Assembly (NCBI GenBank): GCA_025453525.1
Contig: JALOQD010000007.1
Location: 1-36,696 of the forward strand
Direction: 5' to 3'
From: Myxococcota bacterium
GTDB lineage: Bacteria > Myxococcota_A > Polyangia > JAAYKL01
Length of the DNA stretch: 36,696 nucleotides
Shown: positions 17,829 to 29,661 of the stretch, piece after piece
Layout of the letters: every line of letters begins with the position of its first letter
How positions within the stretch are numbered: position 1 is the first letter of the stretch
The notes under the pieces: generated by a model
Told to the model about the DNA's origin: nothing
Databases searched by the model: none
Seen by the model: the letters and a program-made list of their open reading frames with translations, nothing else
Made by a program: the position numbers and the translations under genes

Positions 17829-18550
17829 AATACTACCGCTTGCTCAGCGCATTGCCAGCGCTGCCGCTCGCGCCCGAGAAGCCGCCCATTGCCCTGTCCG
17901 AGGTGATCAGCCAATTGAGGCAGGAGCTCGCGCCCGCGGATCTGCGCCTCGCCGAGGCCATGGCCATGGTCGTGGACATGGGCAATCTCGAGAACCTCCT
18001 GGCCAGTCGCGATGCGCCTTTTGATGCAGGGGGCCTGTACGCGAAGGACCAGCTTTCTTCAAAGCTGGGAACGGATCTGCCGGAGTTCGCCTCTCTACTC
18101 CTGCAAAAATCCGAAGAGGGTGGCCTTTCCCCTGCCGCGGCCATCGCCGCCTTGTGGCAGGCGTACTACGGCTATCTGCTCGAGGTCGCCGAGACCTCGG
18201 GGTGCCGGTTCCTAAAGGAATACGTGGCGTTCGAGCTGCCCCTGCGCAACGCGCTCTATCGCCTGCGCGCCGAAAAGTTGGGCCTCGACACGGCGATCCA
18301 GCGCCTCGACGAGCCCTCGGGCGGCGTTCCCCACGACGATCTCATCTCTGCGCTCGCCGAAGAGCCAGACGCCATCACCCGGGAGCGGCTGCTCGACACC
18401 GCCCGGCTGCGGGCGTTCGAGGCGGTGTCCGGTATAGACCCATTCTCCATCGAAGCTGTCCTGTGCTACCTCGCGTCCACGCTCGTGTTGGACCGTTGGG
18501 ATCTGCCTCGGACCGCCGATGCCAAGCAACTATTGGAGGTGTTCGCGTGA
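17825..18550 (+). CDS. DUF2764-family protein of the V-ATPase operon
   Basis: 241 residues. Start is TTG at 17825, overlapping the atpE stop by four bases and preceded by AGGAGGAGG. The opening MKYYRLLSALPALPL is the hallmark of DUF2764, a family found between atpE and atpA in chlamydiae and spirochaetes. The rest is helical (WQAYYGYLLEVAETSGCRFLKEYVAFELPLRNAL). Its role is unproven; because subunit C, the funnel that connects the rotor to the membrane, is missing from the operon, DUF2764 has the position and the helical character to be a replacement, which is my inference. The R-N-x-L and Y-x-x-L-R stretches resemble the repeated helical units of subunit C in general style only. Confidence 0.85.
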   Translation: MKYYRLLSALPALPLAPEKPPIALSEVISQLRQELAPADLRLAEAMAMVVDMGNLENLLASRDAPFDAGGLYAKDQLSSKLGTDLPEFASLLLQKSEEGGLSPAAAIAALWQAYYGYLLEVAETSGCRFLKEYVAFELPLRNALYRLRAEKLGLDTAIQRLDEPSGGVPHDDLISALAEEPDAITRERLLDTARLRAFEAVSGIDPFSIEAVLCYLASTLVLDRWDLPRTADAKQLLEVFA

Positions 18551-20325
18551 CGACCCCTTCTCAGAAGATTCGAGCCAAAGTGATCGGCGTGTCTGGCAAC
18601 ATGGTGTCCATCGAAGTGCCCGAGGGCGCGCTCGTCCAAAACGAGGTGGCCTACGTCCACTGCGGCGACGAGCACCTCAAGTCCGAGGTGATCAAGATCC
18701 GCGGCAACACGGCCAATCTCCAGGTCTTCGAGGACACCCGCGGCATCGCGCCAGGCCAGGATGTCGAGCTGACCGGCGAGCTCTTGTCGTGCGAGCTCGG
18801 ACCAGGCCTGCTCGGCATGATCTACGATGGTCTTCAGAACCCCCTGCGCCTGCTCGACAATCGCCAGGGGTTCTTCCTCAAGCGCGGCCAGTATCTGCCG
18901 GCCATCGACCAGGCGAAGAAGTGGAAGTTCACGCCCACGGCCAAGCCAGGGGACATCGTGCGCGCTGGGTCGTTCCTCGGTTCTGTGCAGGAGCGGCACT
19001 TTCCCCACCAGATCATGACGCCCTTGGGGCTCATTGGCACAGCCACGGTGGAGTTGGTGCGGCCTGAAGGCGAGTATTCGGTGCGCGACGAAATCGCCGT
19101 GCTCAAAGATGAGGCGGGCAAAAAGACCACCGTGACCATGAGCCAACCCTGGCCGGTCAAAAAGGCCATGAAGGCCTATGCCGAGCGGCTCTACCCAGAG
19201 GAGATGATGGTGAGCGGGGTGCGGATCATCGACACGTTCTTCCCAGTGGGCCGCGGTGGCGTGGCCTGCGTGCCTGGGCCGTTCGGCGCGGGCAAGACCG
19301 TGCTTCAGCACATCCTGTCCAAGTATGCCCAAGTCGACATCGTCATCGTGGTGGCTTGCGGCGAACGCGCCGGCGAGGTGGTGGAGCTCATCGACGAGTT
19401 CCCGCACCTGACCGATCCCAAGACCGGTGGCTCTCTCATGGATCGAACCATCATCATTTGCAACACCTCGTCCATGCCCGTGGCGGCCCGCGACGCCTCG
19501 GTGTACACAGGCGTGACCCTGGCCGAATACTACCGCCAGATGGGCCGCGATGTGCTGCTGCTGGCCGACTCGACTTCCCGCTGGGCCCAGGCCATGCGCG
19601 AGATGTCCGGCCGCCTCGAGGAGATCCCGGGCGAGGAGGCCTTCCCCGCCTACCTCGAGAGCCGAGTCGCCAACTTCTACGAGCGCGCTGGTTTCGTGCA
19701 ACTCCACTCAGGGGACAAGGGCGCGGTGACCATCGTCGGCGCCGTGTCCCCGGCCGGCGGCAACTTCGAGGAGCCCGTGACCCAGGCCACTCTGAAGGTG
19801 GTCTCGGCGTTCCACGGGCTGTCTCGCAAGCGCTCCGACGAGCGCCGCTTTCCAGCCATCGACCCCCTCGACTCTTGGTCCTTGTACCTCAAGCAGCTCG
19901 AGGCGAGCCTCAATAGCCGGCTCGATCCCAAGTGGGTCGAGATGGTCACCTTCTGTACCTCGACCCTGCGCAAGTCCGCCGAGATCGGCCGCATGATGAC
20001 CGTGGTGGGCGAGGAGGGCGTCAGCCTCGACGACCTCGTCGTGTACCTCAAGGGCGAGATGCTCGACGCCGTGTACTTGCAGCAGAACGCCTTCGACGAC
20101 GTCGACCAAGCCACGCCCATCGACAGGCAAGTCAAAGATTTCAAGCTCGTGTACCGGGCGCTCTTTGCGCCGTTCTCCTTCAAGATCAAGAGCGACGCGC
20201 GACGGTTCTTCGCTCGGCTCCAGGACGCCTTCTACCAGAAGAACTACACTCGCGAGGGCTCGGCCGAGCATAAGGGCTACCTCGAGACCATCGAGAAGCT
20301 CCTCGTCGAAGGGAGTGCCGCATGA
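18547..20325 (+). CDS. atpA: V/A-type ATP synthase catalytic subunit A
   Basis: 592 residues. This is the ATP-hydrolysing subunit. The Walker A GPFGAGKT lies at 244-251, and the catalytic Glu/Arg stretch [11 protein letters not shown] follows; the 90-residue bulge domain typical of V/A-type A subunits sits between about 110 and 200 ([23 protein letters not shown]). [36 protein letters not shown] (in part: [18 protein letters not shown]) is the family signature. GTG at 18547 overlaps the preceding stop by four bases, with GGAGGT at 18535-18540. A longer open frame upstream is a shadow of the DUF2764 gene. Confidence 0.97.
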
Positions 20326-21629
20326 TCAAGGCGTACAACCACATTACAAACATCATCGGCGATATCGCCGAGCTCGACGCCCAAGGCGTGGCGTTTGGCG
20401 AGCTAGCTCAGATCACCAACACCAACGGAGAGACGTCTCTGGCTCAGGTCATCAAGATCGATCGCGAGCGGGTCTCGCTCCAGGTGTTCGCCGGCGCCAA
20501 GGGTCTCTCCAATGGGGCCAAGGTGAGGTTCCTCGGCCACCCCATGCAGGTGCCGTTCACCGCCGATCTGCTCGGCCGCGTCTTCAACGGTTCTGGCAAG
20601 CCCCTGGACGGCAAACCCGCCCTGTTCGACGCGCCGGTGATCGAAATCGCCGGTCCCTCGGTGAACCCGGTGAGGCGCATCGTTCCGCGCAACTTCATCG
20701 AGACGCGCATCCCCATGATCGACGTGTTCAACCCTCTCGTCGAAAGCCAGAAGCTCCCCATCTTCAGCCAAGCTGGCGAGCCCTACAACGAGTTGCTCGC
20801 CCGCGTGGGCCTGCAAGCCAAGGCCGACATCATCATTCTCGGCGGCATCGGCCTCAAGTTCGACGAGTATGTCTTCTTTAAGCACGCCTTCGAACGCGGC
20901 GGCGTGATGGACCGCACCATCATGTTCGTGCACACAGCCGCCGATCCAGTGGTGGAGCGCTTGCTCGTGCCGGATCTCGCCCTCGCCGTGGCCGAGCAGT
21001 TTGGCATCGAGGGCAAGCGCGTGCTGGTGCTGCTCACGGACCTCACCGCATTCGCCGACGCGCTCAAGGAGATCAGCGTGGCCATGGAGCAGGTGCCGAG
21101 CAACCTCGGATACCCAGGCTCTCTCTATTCTGATCTCGCCTCGCGTTACGAGAAAGCCGTCGACTTCGAGGGCGCTGGCTCCATCACCATCCTCGCCGTG
21201 ACCACCATGCCCGGCGGCGACGTCACCCACCCAGTGCCCGACAACACCGGGTACATCACCGAGGGCCAGTACTACCTCGCTGGCGGCGTGATCAACCCGT
21301 TCGGCTCCCTGTCGCGCCTCAAGCAGCTCGTGGTGGGCAAGGTGACGCGGTCGGACCACGGCTCGGTGATGAACTCCATGATCCGTCTGTACGCCAAGGC
21401 CCTGGAGACCAAAAAGAAGATCGCCATGGGCTTCGAGAAGACGGCAGACGACGAACGCTATCTCAAATATGCCGACCTGTTCATGCAACGGTTCATGGAC
21501 CTGAGGGTGGATATCCCCCTGGAACAGGCCCTGGACCTCGGCTGGAAGACCATGGCCGAGTGCTTCTCTCCCGAGGAGGTCGGCATCAAGAAGGCGGATC
21601 TCGACAAACATTGGCCGAAGAAGGACTAA
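20322..21629 (+). CDS. atpB: V/A-type ATP synthase regulatory subunit B
   Basis: 435 residues, family length. It alternates with A in the head. The P-loop is replaced, as expected for B: the region around [22 protein letters not shown] has no Gxxxx[29 protein letters not shown] and the [12 protein letters not shown] stretch with the trans-acting Arg are typical of V/A subunit B. The ATG overlaps the atpA stop by four bases. Only a 4-base gap separates it from atpD. Confidence 0.96.
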
Positions 21630-21633
21630 CGCC

Positions 21634-22266
21634 GTGGCCAAAATCAAGCTCAACAAGAACTCTCTGCGGGACCAGCGCCAATCGCTGCGCCTCTATCAGG
21701 AGTTCTTGCCCACCCTGGAGCTGCGCAAGCAACAGCTGCAAGCCGAGCTGCGCACGGTCCAGCAGCGCATCGACGCGCGCCGGCTCGAGCTCGACAAGAT
21801 GCTCGACGGCGCGGTGGGCATGGCTCCGATGCTCGAGACCACCTTGCCCACGGTGAAGTCCCTCGTGGCCGTCGACGAGGTGAAGACCCGCATCGGCAAC
21901 GTGGCTGGCGTCCGCGTGCCGGTGTTCGAGCATGTGAAGTTCAAGGCCATTCCCTACTCCCTGGTGGGGACGCCGCCCTTCTTCGACGCGGCTATCGAGC
22001 TGTGGCAAAAAGCCTTGGGCAGCAGGGCCGAGATCGCGGTGCTCGCTCAGCAGATGGCGGCTCTCGCCCTGCAGCTCACCAAGACCACTCAGCGGATCAA
22101 CTTGTACGAAAAGGTCCTCATCCCCGAGTGCAAGGAGAACATCCGCAAGATCAAGGTGTACCTCGGCGATCAGCAGACCGCCGGGGTGTGCCGCGCCAAG
22201 ATCGCCAAGGGCAAGCTGGTGCGCTACGCCGAGGCCGAGGCCCACGAGGCAGGAGGTGCCCCATGA
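21634..22266 (+). CDS. atpD: V/A-type ATP synthase subunit D (central rotor shaft)
   Basis: 210 residues starting at GTG 21634. The protein is a long antiparallel coiled coil: N-terminal helix LNKNSLRDQRQSLRLYQEFL to QQLQAELRTVQQRIDARR and C-terminal helix QITKTTQRINLYEKVLIPEC, the latter matching the conserved R-x-N-A/L-x-E-x-V-x-I-P segment of subunit D. A weak AAGGA lies upstream. Its rotor partner F, always present in Thermus and archaea, has no gene here. Confidence 0.93.
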   Translation: MAKIKLNKNSLRDQRQSLRLYQEFLPTLELRKQQLQAELRTVQQRIDARRLELDKMLDGAVGMAPMLETTLPTVKSLVAVDEVKTRIGNVAGVRVPVFEHVKFKAIPYSLVGTPPFFDAAIELWQKALGSRAEIAVLAQQMAALALQLTKTTQRINLYEKVLIPECKENIRKIKVYLGDQQTAGVCRAKIAKGKLVRYAEAEAHEAGGAP

Positions 22267-24062
22267 GCGTCCTCCCAATGAAGCGCGTGTCTGTGCTCGC
22301 GCCGGCCGATCGGGCCCGCGACCTGCTCGAGGTCTTGCAGGCCGAGGGCGCGGTGCACCTCGTGCCCCTCGACCTCAGCGCCGAAGTTCCCCAAGAGCCT
22401 GGCGCGCGAGCGACCGCGGCTCGTCGAGTCGAGGCGTTTTTGGCCTCGCGGAAGGGCAAGCTCGAGCCTGTTCCGGCCGAGGCGCACAAGGAGCTGCAGG
22501 GATTGTCCGACCGGGCGCTGCTCGAGCGGGCCGAGGCGCTTCTCGCCACGCGGACCGAAGCCGAGAACAGGGTCTCGGCGCTCGCCAAGGAGTACGAGTC
22601 GGCCCTGCCGTTTGGCGCCTGTTGCCAAGAGGACATCGACGAGCTGGCCAATGCAGGTCTCACGGTTCGCACATACTGGGTCCCTAACGCTGCAAAGAAG
22701 AAGCTCGACCTGCCTTCCGACGTGCTGTGCGCCGAGCTGCCGTGGAACAAGAACCGCAGTATTCTCCTCTGCGCGGAGTTCGGCCCTGGCCAGGACCACC
22801 ACCTGGAGCGCCTCGAGCCACCCGCGCGCCCTGCACCCCAGATCGCGGCCGAGCTCGAGGCCGCGCAGCAAAAAGTTGCGGCCATCGACCAGGAAGTCAC
22901 GGCCCTGTGCGCGGGCCTGCCAGCCATTGCTCGAGAGAGGGCGAGGCTCGTGGATGCGCAACGGCTCAGTGAGGCCAAGGCGCGCGCTGGCGGCGATAGC
23001 GACGTGTTCGCGGTGAGCGGTTGGTGTCCGGCCGTGCGCTGCGAGGCTCTGGCCAAGGTCGTGACCGCGTTTGGCGGCGCCGTGGCGTTTGCGGAGCCCG
23101 GCCCAGAGGAGAACCCGCCGGTGGCGGTGAGCAACGGCGCCATCGTGGGCTGGTTCGAGCCGCTGCTCGGAGCCTTCCAGCTCCCCAGCTACCGCGAGCC
23201 GGATCCCACCATCCTGTTCGCGCCGTTCATGGCCGTGTTCTTCGGCTTCTGCTTGGGCGACGCGGCCTACGGCGCGATCTTGCTCATCGTTACGACCTTG
23301 CTGCGCCGCAAGCTCAAGGATCTCGATGTCACGCTCAACAAGTCCCTGCGGCTCATGCAGCTCCTCGGCCTGTCCACGATCGTGATTGGCCTGCTCACCG
23401 GCGTGGTGTTCGGCCAGGCGATTTACGAAATCGAGGCCGTGAAAGCCCTGGGCCTGACCGAGGACAAGCTCTTGTTTTTCCTCTCGTCCGATCCCAAGAA
23501 CTTCTTCAACGCGGCCCTGATTTTCGGTGTCGTGCAGCTCGCCTTCGGCATCATTGTTCGCCTGATTCTGAAGCTCAAGGCAGGGGAGTACCAGGAGTCC
23601 CTCGGCGTCTTGGGTTGGCTCGGCTTGCTTCCCACTGCGCCCTTCTGGGTGATGACCGGCAATAAAATCCCGTTCCTCGTGGCCCTCGGGCTCATCGTCC
23701 TGTTCAAGTCGCCGAACAAGAGCATCCTCCGGCGCCTGGGCGGCGGTCTGTGGGGACTCTACGAGTGGGTGCTCGGTCTGTTCGGCGACGTCATGAGCTA
23801 CCTGCGTATCTTCGGCCTCGGCCTGTCGTCGGGCATCATCGCCTTGGTCGTCAACACCATCGCTGGGATGATGATGGAGGGCGGCTCGGTGGTCGGCATC
23901 ATCGGCGGCGTTCTCGTGCTGCTCATCGGCCATACGTTCAACTTCGCCATGAGCGTTCTCGGATCCACGGTGCATTCTGCGAGGCTCCAATTCCTGGAGT
24001 TCTTCGGCAAATTCTTCGAGGGCGGCGGGCAGCCATTCAGCCCGTTCGCGCGAACCAAGTAA
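22263..24062 (+). CDS. atpI: V/A-type ATP synthase subunit I (membrane stator, a-subunit)
   Basis: 599 residues: a soluble N-terminal half of about 300 residues that docks the outer stalk, then about seven membrane helices. The essential Arg of the ion half-channel is visible, Arg574 in VHSARLQFLEFFGKFFEGGG, a near-standard V/A motif. The start ATG at 22263 overlaps the atpD stop by four bases; the longer open frame from 22002 is a shadow. FFGFCLGDAAYGAIL and SYLRIFGLGLSSGIIALV are further landmarks of the membrane part. Together with subunit K it forms the ion path. Confidence 0.95.
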   Translation: MSVLPMKRVSVLAPADRARDLLEVLQAEGAVHLVPLDLSAEVPQEPGARATAARRVEAFLASRKGKLEPVPAEAHKELQGLSDRALLERAEALLATRTEAENRVSALAKEYESALPFGACCQEDIDELANAGLTVRTYWVPNAAKKKLDLPSDVLCAELPWNKNRSILLCAEFGPGQDHHLERLEPPARPAPQIAAELEAAQQKVAAIDQEVTALCAGLPAIARERARLVDAQRLSEAKARAGGDSDVFAVSGWCPAVRCEALAKVVTAFGGAVAFAEPGPEENPPVAVSNGAIVGWFEPLLGAFQLPSYREPDPTILFAPFMAVFFGFCLGDAAYGAILLIVTTLLRRKLKDLDVTLNKSLRLMQLLGLSTIVIGLLTGVVFGQAIYEIEAVKALGLTEDKLLFFLSSDPKNFFNAALIFGVVQLAFGIIVRLILKLKAGEYQESLGVLGWLGLLPTAPFWVMTGNKIPFLVALGLIVLFKSPNKSILRRLGGGLWGLYEWVLGLFGDVMSYLRIFGLGLSSGIIALVVNTIAGMMMEGGSVVGIIGGVLVLLIGHTFNFAMSVLGSTVHSARLQFLEFFGKFFEGGGQPFSPFARTK

Positions 24063-24077
24063 GGAGGCTAGTTCCCA

Positions 24078-24542
24078 ATGGAAAACATGGTCGTGCAGGG
24101 TTTCGATTGGTCCGCGTTCAGCGCCTATCTCGGCCTGGGTCTGCTGCTCCTCATGGGCCTTTCGGGCTCAGCCATCGGTCTATCCATCGCCGGCAGCGCG
24201 GTCACGGGGTGCAGGGAAGACAAGCGCGCTTCGGCGCTGGCCGTGTCGCTGCTCCCAGGCACCCAAGGTCTGTACGCGTTTGCCGTGGGCTTTCTGTGCT
24301 TGCAGAAGCTCACCGGCGAAGACCCGCAGAAGTGGTTCCTCACAGTGCTCGCCTGCGGGCTCGCCACGGGTGGTTCGTGTCTGTTTTCGGGCTGGTTCCA
24401 AGGCGCGGTGTGCGCCGCGGGCATCAAGTCCATAAACCAGGGCCGCATCCCCATGGGCCAGGCGCTCCTGCTCGCCGTCATCGTCGAGTTCTACGCCATC
24501 CTCGGTTTCGCCTTTGCCGCTCTCATGCTGTTCAACAAGTGA
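24078..24542 (+). CDS. atpK: V/A-type ATP synthase subunit K (c-ring, predicted Na+-binding)
   Basis: 154 residues, double-hairpin form with four membrane helices. Residues aligned by eye to Enterococcus hirae NtpK show all its Na+ ligands: L59, T62 and Q63 in LLPGTQGLY (NtpK L61, T64, Q65), Q108 in SGWFQGAVCAAG (Q110), and E137 in AVIVEFYAILGF (E139), a constant offset of two. Helix 2 has no acidic residue, so there is one carboxylate per hairpin pair. Na+ transport is therefore predicted, not shown. AAGGAGG (24061-24067) overlaps the atpI stop and lies ten bases before the ATG. Confidence 0.94.
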   Translation: MENMVVQGFDWSAFSAYLGLGLLLLMGLSGSAIGLSIAGSAVTGCREDKRASALAVSLLPGTQGLYAFAVGFLCLQKLTGEDPQKWFLTVLACGLATGGSCLFSGWFQGAVCAAGIKSINQGRIPMGQALLLAVIVEFYAILGFAFAALMLFNK

Positions 24543-24571
24543 GAATGATCGGGGAGATTGAGACCTTTTCG

Positions 24572-24598
24572 TAGACATCTGAAAAACCGCGCTACAAT
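24572..24598 (+). promoter_or_regulatory. Candidate sigma70 promoter of metF
   Basis: TAGACA (24572-24577) and TACAAT (24593-24598), both five of six to consensus, with a short 15-base spacer. The start point would lie near 24605, about 30 bases before the metF ATG. The 93-base gap after atpK is the first sizeable one since the operon began, which makes a separate promoter reasonable. Confidence 0.4.
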
Positions 24599-24635
24599 TA
24601 CGGGGACAAAAATTCGCAACTCGAAAGGAGCTGCC

Positions 24636-25511
24636 ATGAAGCTTTCGAGCAGATGGAGCAGCGGCAAGCCCACGGTGTCATTCGAGGTCTTTCCTCAGCA
24701 CGACGAAAAGGGCCGAGTCCGTTTGGGCAAGGTGATTGAAAAACTGGTGGCCTTGCGCCCGGACTTCATGGGCGTGACGTTCGGCGCCGGAGGCAGCACG
24801 CGCGAGGGTTCGCGGGATCTCGTGGAAGATCTGCGCCGCCTTGGAGTGGAGGTTCTGGCCTATTTTGCCGGATTGGGCCTGGGGCCCCGGCACATCGACG
24901 CTGTGCTGGGCTCATACCAGGAGCTCGGAGTGGAGAACCTGCTGCTGATCCGCGGCGACGAACCCGCGGCCCTAGAGGGCTTCGTCCACGACGAGCAGTC
25001 GATGGCCCATGCCAGCGATTTGGTGAGCTACGTCAAACCGCGGTTCGACCTGTGCCTGGGCGTGGCAGGATACCCAGAAGGCCATGTGCAGGCCAAAGAT
25101 CTCAAGACCGACCTCAAGTACCTCAAGCTCAAGGTGGACGAGGGCGCGACGTTCATTCTCACCAACTATTTTTACGACAATTATTACTACTTCAATTTTG
25201 TAAAGAACTGCCGCGAGATGGGGATTACCGTGCCCATCGTCCCCGGGGTCATGCCCATCTTCAACTTCGGCCTGCTCGAGAGTCTGGCCAAGACGTGCGG
25301 CGCGACCATCACCGAGCGGGTTCAACAAGGCCTCGGCGCTCTTGACCCCAACAACAAGGAAGCGGTCGCAGACTTCGGCGTGGCTTTTGCCATCGAGCAG
25401 TGCGAGGAACTTCTGCGCAAGGGAGCGCCTGGCATTCACCTGTATTCCATGGACAGAGCCAAAAGCGTCGAGACCATTGTGGAAGAGCTGAGGGCAAGGG
25501 GAGTCCTGTAG
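24636..25511 (+). CDS. metF: Divergent methylenetetrahydrofolate reductase
   Basis: 291 residues, standard single-domain MetF length. It should reduce 5,10-methylene-THF to 5-methyl-THF with FAD. Conserved points: VSFEVFP with the catalytic Glu17, VTFGAGGSTREGSRD, LLIRGDEP with Asp108, and VPIVPGVMPIFNF. Unusual points: the usual AHLTC segment is replaced by VLAYFAGLGLG (73-83), and the substrate-binding Gln of the ITQFFFD motif (Gln183 in E. coli) is Asn177 in LTNYFYDN. Folate specificity or partner may therefore differ. AAGGAG (24625-24630) fixes the start at 24636. A second MTHFR domain is at 15117-17009, across the V-ATPase operon. Confidence 0.85.
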   Translation: MKLSSRWSSGKPTVSFEVFPQHDEKGRVRLGKVIEKLVALRPDFMGVTFGAGGSTREGSRDLVEDLRRLGVEVLAYFAGLGLGPRHIDAVLGSYQELGVENLLLIRGDEPAALEGFVHDEQSMAHASDLVSYVKPRFDLCLGVAGYPEGHVQAKDLKTDLKYLKLKVDEGATFILTNYFYDNYYYFNFVKNCREMGITVPIVPGVMPIFNFGLLESLAKTCGATITERVQQGLGALDPNNKEAVADFGVAFAIEQCEELLRKGAPGIHLYSMDRAKSVETIVEELRARGVL

Positions 25512-25746: not shown

Positions 25747-25793
25747 TCCGCCGGTTGTGACTTAACGTGTCTGTCGACCAGGAGCGACTCACG

Positions 25794-27722
25794 ATGGCGA
25801 TTCCCTTTATCGATCCCGATTGTGCGGACTGGCAGGCCTTGGGGCTTATGTGCGGTGTGGAGATCCACCAGCAGCTTCTGACGCAACGCAAGCTCTTTTG
25901 CCGATGCCCAGCCGGGCTGTACAGCCATCACCATGACGCCGAGGTCGTGCGCCACATGCGCCCTACTCTGTCGGAGCTCGGCGAGTACGACGGTACGGCG
26001 CTCATGGAGTTCAAGACCAAGAAGAACATCACCTACCTGCTCGATCGCCGCAGTGTCTGTACCTATGAGATGGACGACACGCCGCCGTTCGAGGTGAACC
26101 GCGAGGCCGTTGAAATAGCCCTGGAGATATCACTGGCGCTCGGGTCCAACATCGTGGGCGAGTTCCATGTGATCCGCAAGCAGTACCTCGACGGCTCCAT
26201 CCCCACTGGGTTCCAGCGCACAGCCATCACAGGCGTGGGTGGCAGGCTGCCCTATCGAGGCAAGCAGATCGGCATTATCCAGCTGAGCGTGGAAGAGGAC
26301 TCCTGCCGCGAGGTGTCGGACCGCGGGCACGACATCGTGTTTCGCACGGACCGCTTGTCCATGCCTCTCGTGGAAGTGGTCACAGAGCCGGACATGCACA
26401 CGCCGCAAGAGGCGGCCGACGTGGTGCGGCTCATCGGGCGCGTGATGCGCAGCACCGGCAGAGTGCGCAGGGGCGCCGGAGCGAGCCGCCAGGACGTGAA
26501 CGTCAGCGTGCGGGGCGGCACGCGCATCGAAATCAAGGGCGTGCCGAGCATCTCGCTCATCCCAGGGCTCGTGGCTGGAGAGGGCGTGCGACAAAAGATG
26601 CTGCTCGACATGCGCGAGGAGATGCTTCGCCTTGGACTGACCCCGCAGACCTTTGCCGACTGCCGAGGGGTGGATGTGAGTTACCTGTTCGAGAGGGAAG
26701 AGACGCCGTTCACCAGGGCGACTCTGCGCGCTGGAGGCCGCTTCATGGCCGTGCGGTTGCCGGGCATGCGCGACCTCTTATCCACCAAGGTCGGCAGGAC
26801 GAGGACCTTTGCCGATGAGCTCGGCGGTCGCGTGCGGGTCATCGCCTGCCTCGACGTTCGTCCGCTCGTGGTCACCGACGATACGTGTCACGACCTCGGC
26901 ATTCGCGACGAACGCTGGCGAACCCTGCGCAAGAAGCTGCGGTGCAAGGCCACGGATGCGGTGGCGCTCGCGCATGGCCCAGTCGTGGACGCGCAATGCG
27001 CCGTTGCCGAGATCGTGGCGCGCGTCGTCGAGTGCTTCGAGGGCGTGCCCCGCGAAACCCGACAAGTGCGCAGCGGCGGCGAGACCGACTTCGAGCGCAT
27101 CCTTCCCGGTCCGGACCGCATGTATCCCGACACAGACTCTCCTCCGCTCGCCGTGACCGACGAGTGGCTCGCGGCCCTGGCAGCACGGCGTCGCACACCC
27201 GTATGGGAGCTCGACGAGCAACTCATGGCCGTCGGGCTGCCCCGGGATGTGGCTGAGAATTTGGCCATCTCGCCTCGCCTGCCTTTGTGGCAAAAGGCCG
27301 TGGACGGCGGCGCAGATCCCAAAGCCCTGGGCCTCCTCCTCGGCATGCGCTGGACCGCTCTCGTGCGCCGCGGGCTGCCTCTGAAGCGCATCCCAGAGGG
27401 AACGCTCCGCGATCTCTTCGCCGCCGCGGCTGCCGGTCGCGTCATGTACGAGGCGCTGCCCATGCTGCTCGAGGATGCGGCCGTGGCGCCTGAGCGCCCA
27501 GCTCTCGAGCTTCTGAATTTGCGGGGACTCTCTCCCATGACCCAGGCCGAGGCCGCACGTCGCATTTCCGATGTGCTCGAGCATTTGGCGAGGCCAACCT
27601 CGGTCGATCCCGCGGCCCGAAAGCGCTATTACATGGGCAAGCTCATGCCCCATTTCTTCGGTCGATTGGCCGGCGTCACGGTGGAGCGGCTGTTCGATGA
27701 AATCATGGCAGGCGCAGCATGA
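25794..27722 (+). CDS. gatE: Archaeal-type Glu-tRNA(Gln) amidotransferase subunit E
   Basis: 642 residues. GatE works with GatD in archaea to convert Glu-tRNA(Gln) to Gln-tRNA(Gln); it phosphorylates the tRNA-bound Glu. Residues about 20-290 are the GatB/E kinase domain: CGVEIHQQL, KLFCRCP, RPTLSELGEYD, RKQYLDGSIPTGFQRTA, LSVEEDSCR, RQDVNVSV and IEIKGVPS. Residues about 300-435 form the inserted GAD domain shared with bacterial AspRS, ending VPRETRQ to LPGPDRMYPDTDSPP; this insert separates GatE from GatB. The C terminus is the helical YqeY-like tail. AGGAG (25780-25784) favours ATG 25794 over GTG 25767. Stop overlaps the trpS start by four bases. GatD is not in the window. Confidence 0.9.
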   Translation: MAIPFIDPDCADWQALGLMCGVEIHQQLLTQRKLFCRCPAGLYSHHHDAEVVRHMRPTLSELGEYDGTALMEFKTKKNITYLLDRRSVCTYEMDDTPPFEVNREAVEIALEISLALGSNIVGEFHVIRKQYLDGSIPTGFQRTAITGVGGRLPYRGKQIGIIQLSVEEDSCREVSDRGHDIVFRTDRLSMPLVEVVTEPDMHTPQEAADVVRLIGRVMRSTGRVRRGAGASRQDVNVSVRGGTRIEIKGVPSISLIPGLVAGEGVRQKMLLDMREEMLRLGLTPQTFADCRGVDVSYLFEREETPFTRATLRAGGRFMAVRLPGMRDLLSTKVGRTRTFADELGGRVRVIACLDVRPLVVTDDTCHDLGIRDERWRTLRKKLRCKATDAVALAHGPVVDAQCAVAEIVARVVECFEGVPRETRQVRSGGETDFERILPGPDRMYPDTDSPPLAVTDEWLAALAARRRTPVWELDEQLMAVGLPRDVAENLAISPRLPLWQKAVDGGADPKALGLLLGMRWTALVRRGLPLKRIPEGTLRDLFAAAAAGRVMYEALPMLLEDAAVAPERPALELLNLRGLSPMTQAEAARRISDVLEHLARPTSVDPAARKRYYMGKLMPHFFGRLAGVTVERLFDEIMAGAA

Positions 27723-28942
27723 AAGAGACCAAAGAGCGAATCTTTAGCGGCATTCAGCCCAGCGGGGACATCCACATTGGCAACTACCTGGGCGCGGTGA
27801 AGACCTGGGTGGCGCTCACGCAGACCCACGATTGCATTTTCTGCATCGTCGATGACCACGCGATCACCGTGGACTACGACCCCAAAGAGCTGTCGCGCCG
27901 CACCTTCGAGGCCGCGCTCGCGGTCATGGCCTGCGGGCTCGACCCCAGTCAGTGCACGCTGTTCGTGCAGTCCCATGTGCCGCAGCACACCGAGCTCACA
28001 TGGCTCTTCAACACCGTCACTCCGCTGGGTTCGCTGTTTCGGATGACCCAGTTCAAGGAAAAGAGCCGCAACGCCCTGGCCAAGGCGATGTCTGGAAAGG
28101 GCGAAGCTGCCAGCACGCTGCTCTTCGACCTCAAACAAACCGGCCACGAGGCGGCCGCAGCCCTCGACGCCCTTCAAGAAGATCTCACGGCCCTCGATCC
28201 TCAAGGGGAGCTCGACGAAGAACGCGTGGCGCGCATCAACAACGGCCTGGGCGAGCTCATGGCCCGATTGCAGGTGGGGCTCGGAGTGTCGGCCGCGTCC
28301 ACTGGATTGCTCGACTACCCCGTGCTCCAGGCCGCGGACATCCTTCTCTACAAAGCGAGCGCGGAGCAGCCTGTGCTCGTGCCCGTGGGCGAGGATCAAG
28401 AGCAACACCTGGAGCTGTGCCGCGAGGTGGCGCAGCGGTTCAACCGCCGGTTTGGCAAGGCAGTGTTCCCGAGCGTGGAGCGCGTCAAGGGAGAGGCGCC
28501 GCGCATCCTCGGTTTGGATGGCCAACGGAAGATGTCCAAGAGCCTCAGCAATCACATCGGCGTGCTCGACACTCCCAAACAAGTGAAGAAGAAGATCGGC
28601 AGCGCGTTTACCGATCCCCAGCGGCTACGGCGCGAGAATCCAGGGCGGCCGGAAAAGTGCAACGTGTACTCGTTGCATGGGTTTTTCACCGGCGAAGAGG
28701 CCCGCCAGGAGCTCGCTCAGGGGTGTCGCTCGGCAGGTATCGGCTGCGGCGACTGCAAGGCCGTGCTCATCGACGGCATCAACCAAATGCTCGATCCCAT
28801 CCGCGGGCGGGCGGCGCACCTGTCTGCCCATCAGAGCGAAGTGCACGAGGCTCTGGCTGCGGGCGCCCAGCGCTGCCGCTCCTTGGCCGAGGCCACCATG
28901 GCAGAGGTTCGACAGGCCATGGGTCTGTTGCCAGAGCCCTAG
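27719..28942 (+). CDS. trpS: Tryptophanyl-tRNA synthetase with insertion
   Basis: 407 residues against about 330 in the common bacterial enzyme. It charges tRNA(Trp). Class I motifs: HIGN at 19-22 (for HIGH) and KMSKS at 271-275; YPVLQAADILLY and VPVGEDQEQHLEL are TrpRS signatures. The extra length comes mainly from an insertion of about 70-75 residues (roughly 118-192) in the connecting region between FKEKSR and LLDYPVLQ, rich in Ala, Leu and Glu. C314, C336, C343 and C346 form C-x21-C-x6-C-x2-C, close to the C-x22-C-x6-C-x2-C that binds [4Fe-4S] in Thermotoga TrpRS. Cotranscribed and coupled with gatE. Confidence 0.94.
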   Translation: MKETKERIFSGIQPSGDIHIGNYLGAVKTWVALTQTHDCIFCIVDDHAITVDYDPKELSRRTFEAALAVMACGLDPSQCTLFVQSHVPQHTELTWLFNTVTPLGSLFRMTQFKEKSRNALAKAMSGKGEAASTLLFDLKQTGHEAAAALDALQEDLTALDPQGELDEERVARINNGLGELMARLQVGLGVSAASTGLLDYPVLQAADILLYKASAEQPVLVPVGEDQEQHLELCREVAQRFNRRFGKAVFPSVERVKGEAPRILGLDGQRKMSKSLSNHIGVLDTPKQVKKKIGSAFTDPQRLRRENPGRPEKCNVYSLHGFFTGEEARQELAQGCRSAGIGCGDCKAVLIDGINQMLDPIRGRAAHLSAHQSEVHEALAAGAQRCRSLAEATMAEVRQAMGLLPEP

Positions 28943-29052
28943 TCTGGGGTTAAGAAAAGAAGAAGAGTTTCGTAAGGGGTCCTTTGACCGGCCACTAATA
29001 GATATACATGGGACGAAGGTCCATCCTTCGTTTATCGACAAGGAGGCAGAGC

Positions 29053-29661
29053 ATGAAGAGAGTTATCGTTAGCACAATCCTTGCTGCGGTTGCACTCGCG
29101 GTTTGCTCCTGCGAGGAGAAGCCCAGCGAGCCGGCGCAAGTGTGGGGCTCTGTCGCTCCGAGCATTCTGTCGTCGTCGTTTCAGGTCAATGGCAGCCTCG
29201 GCGAGGGCGGCCAGCGTTACTACGGTTACTGTCGGCTCGAGGACGGCGTTTTTTCCTTTGGCCTGGGCAACCACAAGCCCACCGCAAATGCACCGGCCAC
29301 CATGTTTTACTCGACCGTCAGCGGAGTCTCTGGGCCACCCACCGAGGGCGTGTTCAAAGATGGAGCCCCCAAGGTCAACGAGGACCTGCACAAGAAGTTC
29401 AAGAGCGCGAGCTTCAAAGTGGGCACGGCCCAGTCGTGGAACGTCAACAGCAATAACATGTCTAGTGACGAATATTGCCACGTGAGCCTGTTTGCCAGTG
29501 CTCTGGACACGGAGCTTCTGCCCGAGGAATACGGCAGCGAGCCGTTCGACTACTACCTGCGCATCGAGTGCTCAGGCCTCGACATTCCAGACAACGCTGG
29601 CCATGGCGCGAACCTCACCTCGTTCTACACGAACCTGTATTTTTCCGGCTGCCAGGACTAG
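29053..29661 (+). CDS. Hypothetical lipoprotein
   Basis: 202 residues, family not recognised. AAGGAGG (29040-29046) and a typical lipoprotein signal (MKRVIVSTILAAVALAVCSC) fix the start at 29053, lipidated Cys near residue 20. The mature part has a beta-rich look with YYGYCRLEDGVFSFG and FDYYLRIECSG, and four further Cys that could pair. Thr/Ser/Asn-rich turns (WNVNSNNMSSDEY) and a closing SGCQD suggest an exposed envelope domain. It lies 110 bases after trpS and converges on the next gene. Confidence 0.75.
   Translation: MKRVIVSTILAAVALAVCSCEEKPSEPAQVWGSVAPSILSSSFQVNGSLGEGGQRYYGYCRLEDGVFSFGLGNHKPTANAPATMFYSTVSGVSGPPTEGVFKDGAPKVNEDLHKKFKSASFKVGTAQSWNVNSNNMSSDEYCHVSLFASALDTELLPEEYGSEPFDYYLRIECSGLDIPDNAGHGANLTSFYTNLYFSGCQD

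Follow-up and report, generated by a model that had tools for sequence, protein, structure and literature searches.

A gene resembling archaeal gatE stands in a contig of a Myxococcota bacterium, directly upstream of trpS, and raises the question of what a GatE subunit does in a bacterial cell. Reviews and evolutionary models up to 2022 describe the GatDE amidotransferase as archaeal only (PMC9499178, PMC8007984), and our search of the literature available outside subscription papers found no description of a bacterial GatDE. We therefore analyzed the gene, its 36,696-nucleotide contig stretch (the window; features in Table 1), its genome (G000), and its relatives in other genomes.

Table 1. 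Features of the gatE locus in window coordinates
Feature	Position	Strand	Basis
gatE, Glu-tRNA(Gln) amidotransferase subunit E, 642 aa	25794..27722	+	NF003107, TIGR00134, 1zq1_C, fold match
GGAG, candidate ribosome-binding site of gatE	25781..25784	+	Sequence read; 10-13 bases 5' of ATG
Cradle (kinase) domain, first part, residues 11-280	25824..26633	+	42-44% identity to two archaeal GatE
GAD-type insert, residues about 281-400	26634..26993	+	Colinear with 1zq1_C insert; 22% identity to archaeal GatE
Cradle domain, second part, residues 401-455	26994..27158	+	37-48% identity to archaeal GatE
Helical and tail (YqeY-like) domains, residues 456-642	27159..27719	+	19-20% identity to archaeal GatE; helical in model
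trpS, conserved 3' neighbour of gatE in G005, G009	27719..28942	+	TIGR00233, 308 bits; synteny
217-aa ORF, function unassigned, 3' of trpS; conserved in G005, G009	29008..29661	+	tblastn, 38-40% identity

The gene is a genuine full-length gatE. Its reading frame starts with ATG and contains no internal stops, and the product scored 495 bits with the NCBIfam GatE model NF003107 (cut-off 456; residues 11-637) and 399 bits with TIGR00134 gatE_arch (cut-off 320), whereas the GatB model TIGR00133 gave just 121 bits against a cut-off of 315 and thus failed. When the PDB was searched with phmmer, Pyrococcus abyssi GatE (1zq1_C) was colinear with residues 9-633 (E=7e-98), and Methanothermobacter GatE (2d6f_C) also matched over nearly the full length. 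Furthermore, a structure search with an AlphaFold2 model (mean pLDDT 88, pTM 0.86) returned 1zq1_C and 2d6f_C/D at the top (E about 1e-45 to 1e-42), with all GatB structures ranking lower. These results confirmed the initial annotation, made from the sequence alone, in assigning the protein to GatE and not to GatB; since models of a public library already recognize the protein as GatE, the gene does not represent a new kind.

The domain order and fold are those of the archaeal enzymes of P. abyssi (1zq1) and M. thermautotrophicus (2d6f). Pfam GatB_N covers residues 19-459 (171 bits), and in an alignment of 59 GatE sequences the invariant columns fall mostly in the first part of the cradle. The inserted GAD domain that had been proposed is supported by the colinear insert and by weak AspRS matches of the structure model, as a GAD fold would give, but the Pfam GAD model did not reach E 0.01 on the window protein, as it did on 21 of the 59 aligned GatE; GatB_Yqey likewise left it unmatched and matched 38 of the 59. 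Both models miss it because the insert (22% identity) and the helical and tail domains (19-20%) are strongly diverged, and PF02637, which missed the window protein, was unsuited as a genome probe for GatE. In archaeal GatDE, the helical and tail domains are the tRNA-reading part. The window protein differs from the archaeal ones also in a loop, with the sequence RKQYLDGSIPTGFQRT in place of the RKIVIDGSNVSGFQRT and RKQVIDGSNTGGFQRT of the archaeal pair.

The gatE stop codon TGA (27720-27722) overlaps the trpS start codon ATG at 27719 in an ATGA, and the proposed translational coupling to trpS thus stands. The order gatE-trpS-217-aa ORF is common to G000, G005, and G009, all of one family; the 217-aa product had no matches in Pfam. 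The TrpRS (407 aa) is matched by family models in two stretches, and an insertion of about 80 residues, around residues 110-190, appears to split its catalytic domain. A V/A-type ATPase operon at 18154-24542, with Pfam matches to two catalytic-type subunits, subunit I, and the proteolipid, is followed at 24558-25511 by a MetF-like methylenetetrahydrofolate reductase gene just upstream of gatE. Among 80 fetched gatE loci, no recurrent neighbour was found besides gatD.

No gatD had been noticed near gatE. That is correct within the window, but a different contig of the genome encodes a GatD (G000:C264:222-1424, 461 aa, 511 bits, cut-off 324) that keeps the asparaginase catalytic motifs of 2d6f_A and 1zq1_A (two threonines, aspartate, and lysine), with GTGGTIAS, HGTDT, and VRKMHSS aligned to the solved GatD. 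In G005, gatD also lies on a separate contig from gatE and shows 81% identity to its G000 counterpart, and in G009 (71% complete) the profile search did not find it, whereas in other family members it adjoins gatE, so that its absence from the window is a local rearrangement. As in archaea, the two genes are usually adjacent in other bacteria carrying both: gatD lies within 53 of the 80 fetched gatE loci (at most 400 bases away in 52, on the same strand in 51), and the pair thus moves together. As the window's clade keeps the two genes apart, the case for their joint function there rests on homology.

Judged by its genes, G000 is predicted to encode a complete bacterial GatDE, the sole tRNA-dependent amidotransferase found there, in agreement with one option of the initial annotation. 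Its other option, that GatE acts with another amidase or asparaginase, is disfavoured by the canonical GatD with its catalytic residues. The separation of gatE from gatD, its coupling to trpS in the window's clade, and the strong divergence of the helical and tail domains would all fit a GatE working with such an amidase or outside aminoacyl-tRNA amidation altogether; given the GatD of G000 and the many cradle residues that are invariant across the 59 sequences, we regard this as very unlikely.

We then considered the origin of the gene, for which transfer from archaea had been put forward as the simplest explanation. A recent archaeal transfer, or archaeal contamination of the bin, would accord with the description of GatDE as archaeal only, but the distribution of GatE speaks strongly against it. 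One scan of a one-genome-per-species set found GatE relatives on at least 567 contigs, and the best 80 of these were nearly all bacterial, plus three Thermoplasmatota MAGs. They covered Myxococcota, Planctomycetota, Ignavibacteria and relatives, Acidobacteriota, Aminicenantes, KSB1, Zixibacteria, WOR-3, Cloacimonetes, Gemmatimonadota, Krumholzibacteriota, Eisenbacteria, Caldisericia, and others; the genomes are for the most part MAGs, and the closed Ignavibacteria chromosome CP054675.1, itself a MAG, carries GatE together with GlnRS (766 bits) and has no GatA match. In a tree of 86 GatE, made by a quick method with the root not fixed and five archaeal sequences, a branch of 1.47 changes per site set the two solved euryarchaeal sequences, which were taken from phmmer alignments and lack their ends, apart from a deeply branching bacterial set in which the phyla are mixed. 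Outside the window's family, the nearest GatE relatives were L145 and L186. Together with the gatE-trpS-ORF order repeated in two further genomes of the same family, these data leave a recent archaeal origin or contamination scarcely credible, and a simple archaeal transfer as first stated is not upheld. The window's family and family f5 each occupy two places within the bacterial set, which indicates repeated transfer between bacteria, and several horizontal moves of gatE are apparent from this sequence tree. The three Thermoplasmatota MAGs (L155, L159, L170) carry a bacterial-type GatE loop, RKQYLDG(S/T)IPTGFQRT, unlike P. abyssi and M. thermautotrophicus.

The archaeal trait of lacking GlnRS is not found in this host. 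G000 encodes a full-length GlnRS (732 bits), an AsnRS (608 bits), one bacterial AspRS, and one GluRS (499 bits), and its GlnRS and AsnRS, together with the unlinked gatE, distinguish the system from archaeal GatDE; the absence of GlnRS is, however, a trait of the archaeal hosts and not of the enzyme, so that membership in the GatDE family stands. Profile searches gave zero GatA matches in G000, which at 89% completeness cannot by itself rule out a missed gatA, and no GatA over the cut-off in the remaining GatE genomes of the family, which are 71-96% complete. The search for gatCAB and glnRS that the initial annotation had suggested thus yielded GlnRS without GatA, an outcome it did not foresee. 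In addition, archaeal GatDE reads A1-U72 of tRNA(Gln) (PMC9499178), whereas tRNA(Gln) UUG, tRNA(Gln) CUG, and tRNA(Asn) of G000 all have U1-A72, and base pair 1:72 therefore cannot separate its tRNA(Asn) from its tRNA(Gln).

Two further leads were set aside. The GluRS site of T. thermophilus Arg358, tried as a marker of tRNA(Gln) charging, is Lys in G000, G005, and G006 and Arg nearly everywhere else, but is not diagnostic because Arg also occurs in G036, a genome with GatCAB and no GlnRS over the cut-off, which should need a nondiscriminating GluRS; for H. pylori GluRS1, too, the residue is reported to lack this effect (PMC3927822). G000, G010, and G020 also encode AspRS-like proteins of about 310-390 aa; the idea that these are AsnRS paralogues of the asparagine-synthetase type was dropped, as by eye they look like EpmA-type LysRS paralogues. 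A short LysRS-like protein, also EpmA-type by eye, is encoded directly upstream of gltX in G000 (L052:1429-3947).

The comparison with GatCAB was extended to 39 genomes of the class, with GatA counted at 400 bits or more. GatE was present in 12 and GatA in 26: GatE only in 10, GatA only in 24, both in 2, and neither in 3 (Fisher p=2e-5). Within the window's family, eight genomes have GatE, six have GatCAB, and none has both (p=3e-4), although the genomes of one family are not independent and the p-values therefore overstate the case. In the window's lineage, GatDE sits where sister genomes have GatCAB. The GatE genomes of the family form two separate lineages in the tree (G000/G005/G009 and G006/G012/L162), so that the GatE/GatA pattern must have two or more origins or have been reshuffled. 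GatDE thus shares with bacterial GatCAB a homologous kinase domain, a near-complementary distribution in the class, and plausibly the same job, and differs in the low GatB score of its GatE, in the lack of GatA in G000, and in the second AspRS that adjoins GatCAB in the sister genomes. Across bacteria the exclusion fails: among 50 bacterial GatE genomes, GlnRS was over the cut-off in 37 and GatA in 21, and 22 had GlnRS without a GatA-like match of at least 400 bits.

In three genomes, GlnRS is directly followed by a match resembling the GatB/YqeY tail (G023:C67, G025:C23, G031:C327), an arrangement that suggests a GlnRS-YqeY fusion. A fusion of this kind occurs in Deinococcus.

What is observed is which genes are present, that they are intact, and how they are distributed; the activity and substrate of this GatDE are predicted from homology within the family. 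We consider it probable that the product of the window gene is the subunit that binds tRNA and activates the side chain in a complete bacterial GatDE, the only tRNA-dependent amidotransferase found in the lineage, in place of the GatCAB of sister genomes and beside both GlnRS and AsnRS. GatD, encoded apart from gatE, would free ammonia from glutamine or asparagine as the amide donor, while GatE would phosphorylate the side-chain carboxylate of the amino acid on the wrong tRNA and then amidate it there. By descent the substrate would be Glu-tRNA(Gln), handled in a second or repair route beside GlnRS. With chances a little short of even, GatDE in this family might also, or instead, amidate the Asp-tRNA(Asn) that the single AspRS, of the His type, would produce, and thereby supply asparagine. 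The two substrates appear about equally likely, the first because of the ancestry of GatDE and the second because of its distribution complementary to GatCAB and the type of AspRS; a dual role is possible.

The AspRS sequences bear on this choice. Leu30 of E. coli AspRS marks a position at which Leu is found in the discriminating enzymes, those of E. coli and T. thermophilus, and His in P. aeruginosa (4wj4), whose enzyme is nondiscriminating, and in M. tuberculosis and M. smegmatis, whose enzymes are deposited as tRNA(Asp/Asn) ligases. In one of the searches behind this comparison the N-terminal part of the second AspRS of G013 served as the query, with about ten leading residues as filler, and only matched residues of the PDB chains were used from it. 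The lone AspRS of the family's GatDE genomes has His in 7 of 7 readable cases. In the six GatCAB genomes, the first AspRS has Leu (6/6) and a second, His-type AspRS is encoded directly beside gatB (6/6). These second enzymes (L105, L106, L109, L110, L248, L249) share about 42-44% identity with an AspRS from GatDE genomes of the family.

Such a pattern is what would be expected if GatDE in the family had moved to asparagine, the lone AspRS making Asp-tRNA(Asn) and GatDE, in replacement of GatCAB, amidating it to Asn-tRNA(Asn) and thus, where asparagine synthetase is missing, also supplying asparagine. Consistently, G020 and G028, members of the class with GlnRS and AsnRS and no amidotransferase, have Leu and Phe at this position; profile searches found no AsnB over the cut-off in G000, G001, G005, G010, and G012; and tRNA(Asn) of G000 resembles both tRNA(Gln) in U1-A72. 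On the other hand, archaeal GatDE is described as a Glu-tRNA(Gln) enzyme (PMC9499178), and AsnB is present in G002 and G006. Leu also occupies the position in G017 and G034, which have GatDE only, and 19 bacteria of other groups with GatE and GlnRS and without GatA have Leu or Met in 14 cases and His in 5; Asp-tRNA(Asn) therefore cannot be the general role of GatDE. At the position of E. coli Lys81, a second determinant, Lys is present in both the GatDE and the GatCAB group of the family, and His is the usual residue of the class at the Leu30 position, so that it may simply have been inherited. The asparagine synthetase distribution was also tried as a discriminator and dropped, as the GatDE and GatCAB genomes of the family do not differ in it. 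We thus hold a move to asparagine to be a tentative reading with less than even chances.

A close parallel is Bdellovibrio bacteriovorus with its nondiscriminating AspRS and GatCAB, for which a rescue test in the E. coli asparagine auxotroph JF448 has been carried out (PMC4206432). This bacterium shares with G000 a GlnRS, an AsnRS, one AspRS, a single amidotransferase, and no AsnB found; in G000, however, the amidotransferase is GatDE, and the nondiscriminating nature of AspRS is suggested by one residue. The wider proposal, that a bacterial GatDE took the place of GatCAB and acquired Asp-tRNA(Asn) as a substrate, with asparagine made on tRNA despite GlnRS and AsnRS, we consider rather unlikely.

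Alternatively, Glu-tRNA(Gln) may be the sole substrate of GatDE, which would then serve as a second route or correct the mischarging of tRNA(Gln) by GluRS and take no part in asparagine metabolism. This would agree with the role described for the archaeal enzyme, with the discriminating-like AspRS of 14 of the 19 other bacteria, and with G060, which has GatE and two GluRS copies and in which neither GlnRS nor GatA was found. In contrast, the GlnRS of G000 and of 37 of the 50 GatE genomes removes the known need for such a route, GatDE looking superfluous for making Gln-tRNA where GlnRS is present, and the family's His-type AspRS would be left without an amidotransferase for its likely misacylated product. 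A role confined to glutamine is thus possible, but we would not put it at even chances.

Whichever substrate the GatDE of this lineage serves, the at least 567 GatE contigs, the best of them nearly all bacterial, contradict the view of GatDE as archaeal only. A 2014 survey knew of no bacterium with both routes to Gln-tRNA(Gln) (PMC4206432), and many bacteria, one of them with a closed chromosome, carry the genes of both GlnRS and GatDE. The finding also puts back under debate whether co-evolution of GatDE with archaeal tRNA(Gln) kept GlnRS out, and offers a case, open to direct testing, in which two charging routes compete, or the substrate has changed, in cells with U1-A72 tRNA(Gln). If the gain of asparagine were true, an enzyme thought to be archaeal and glutamine-specific would make asparagine on a bacterial tRNA.
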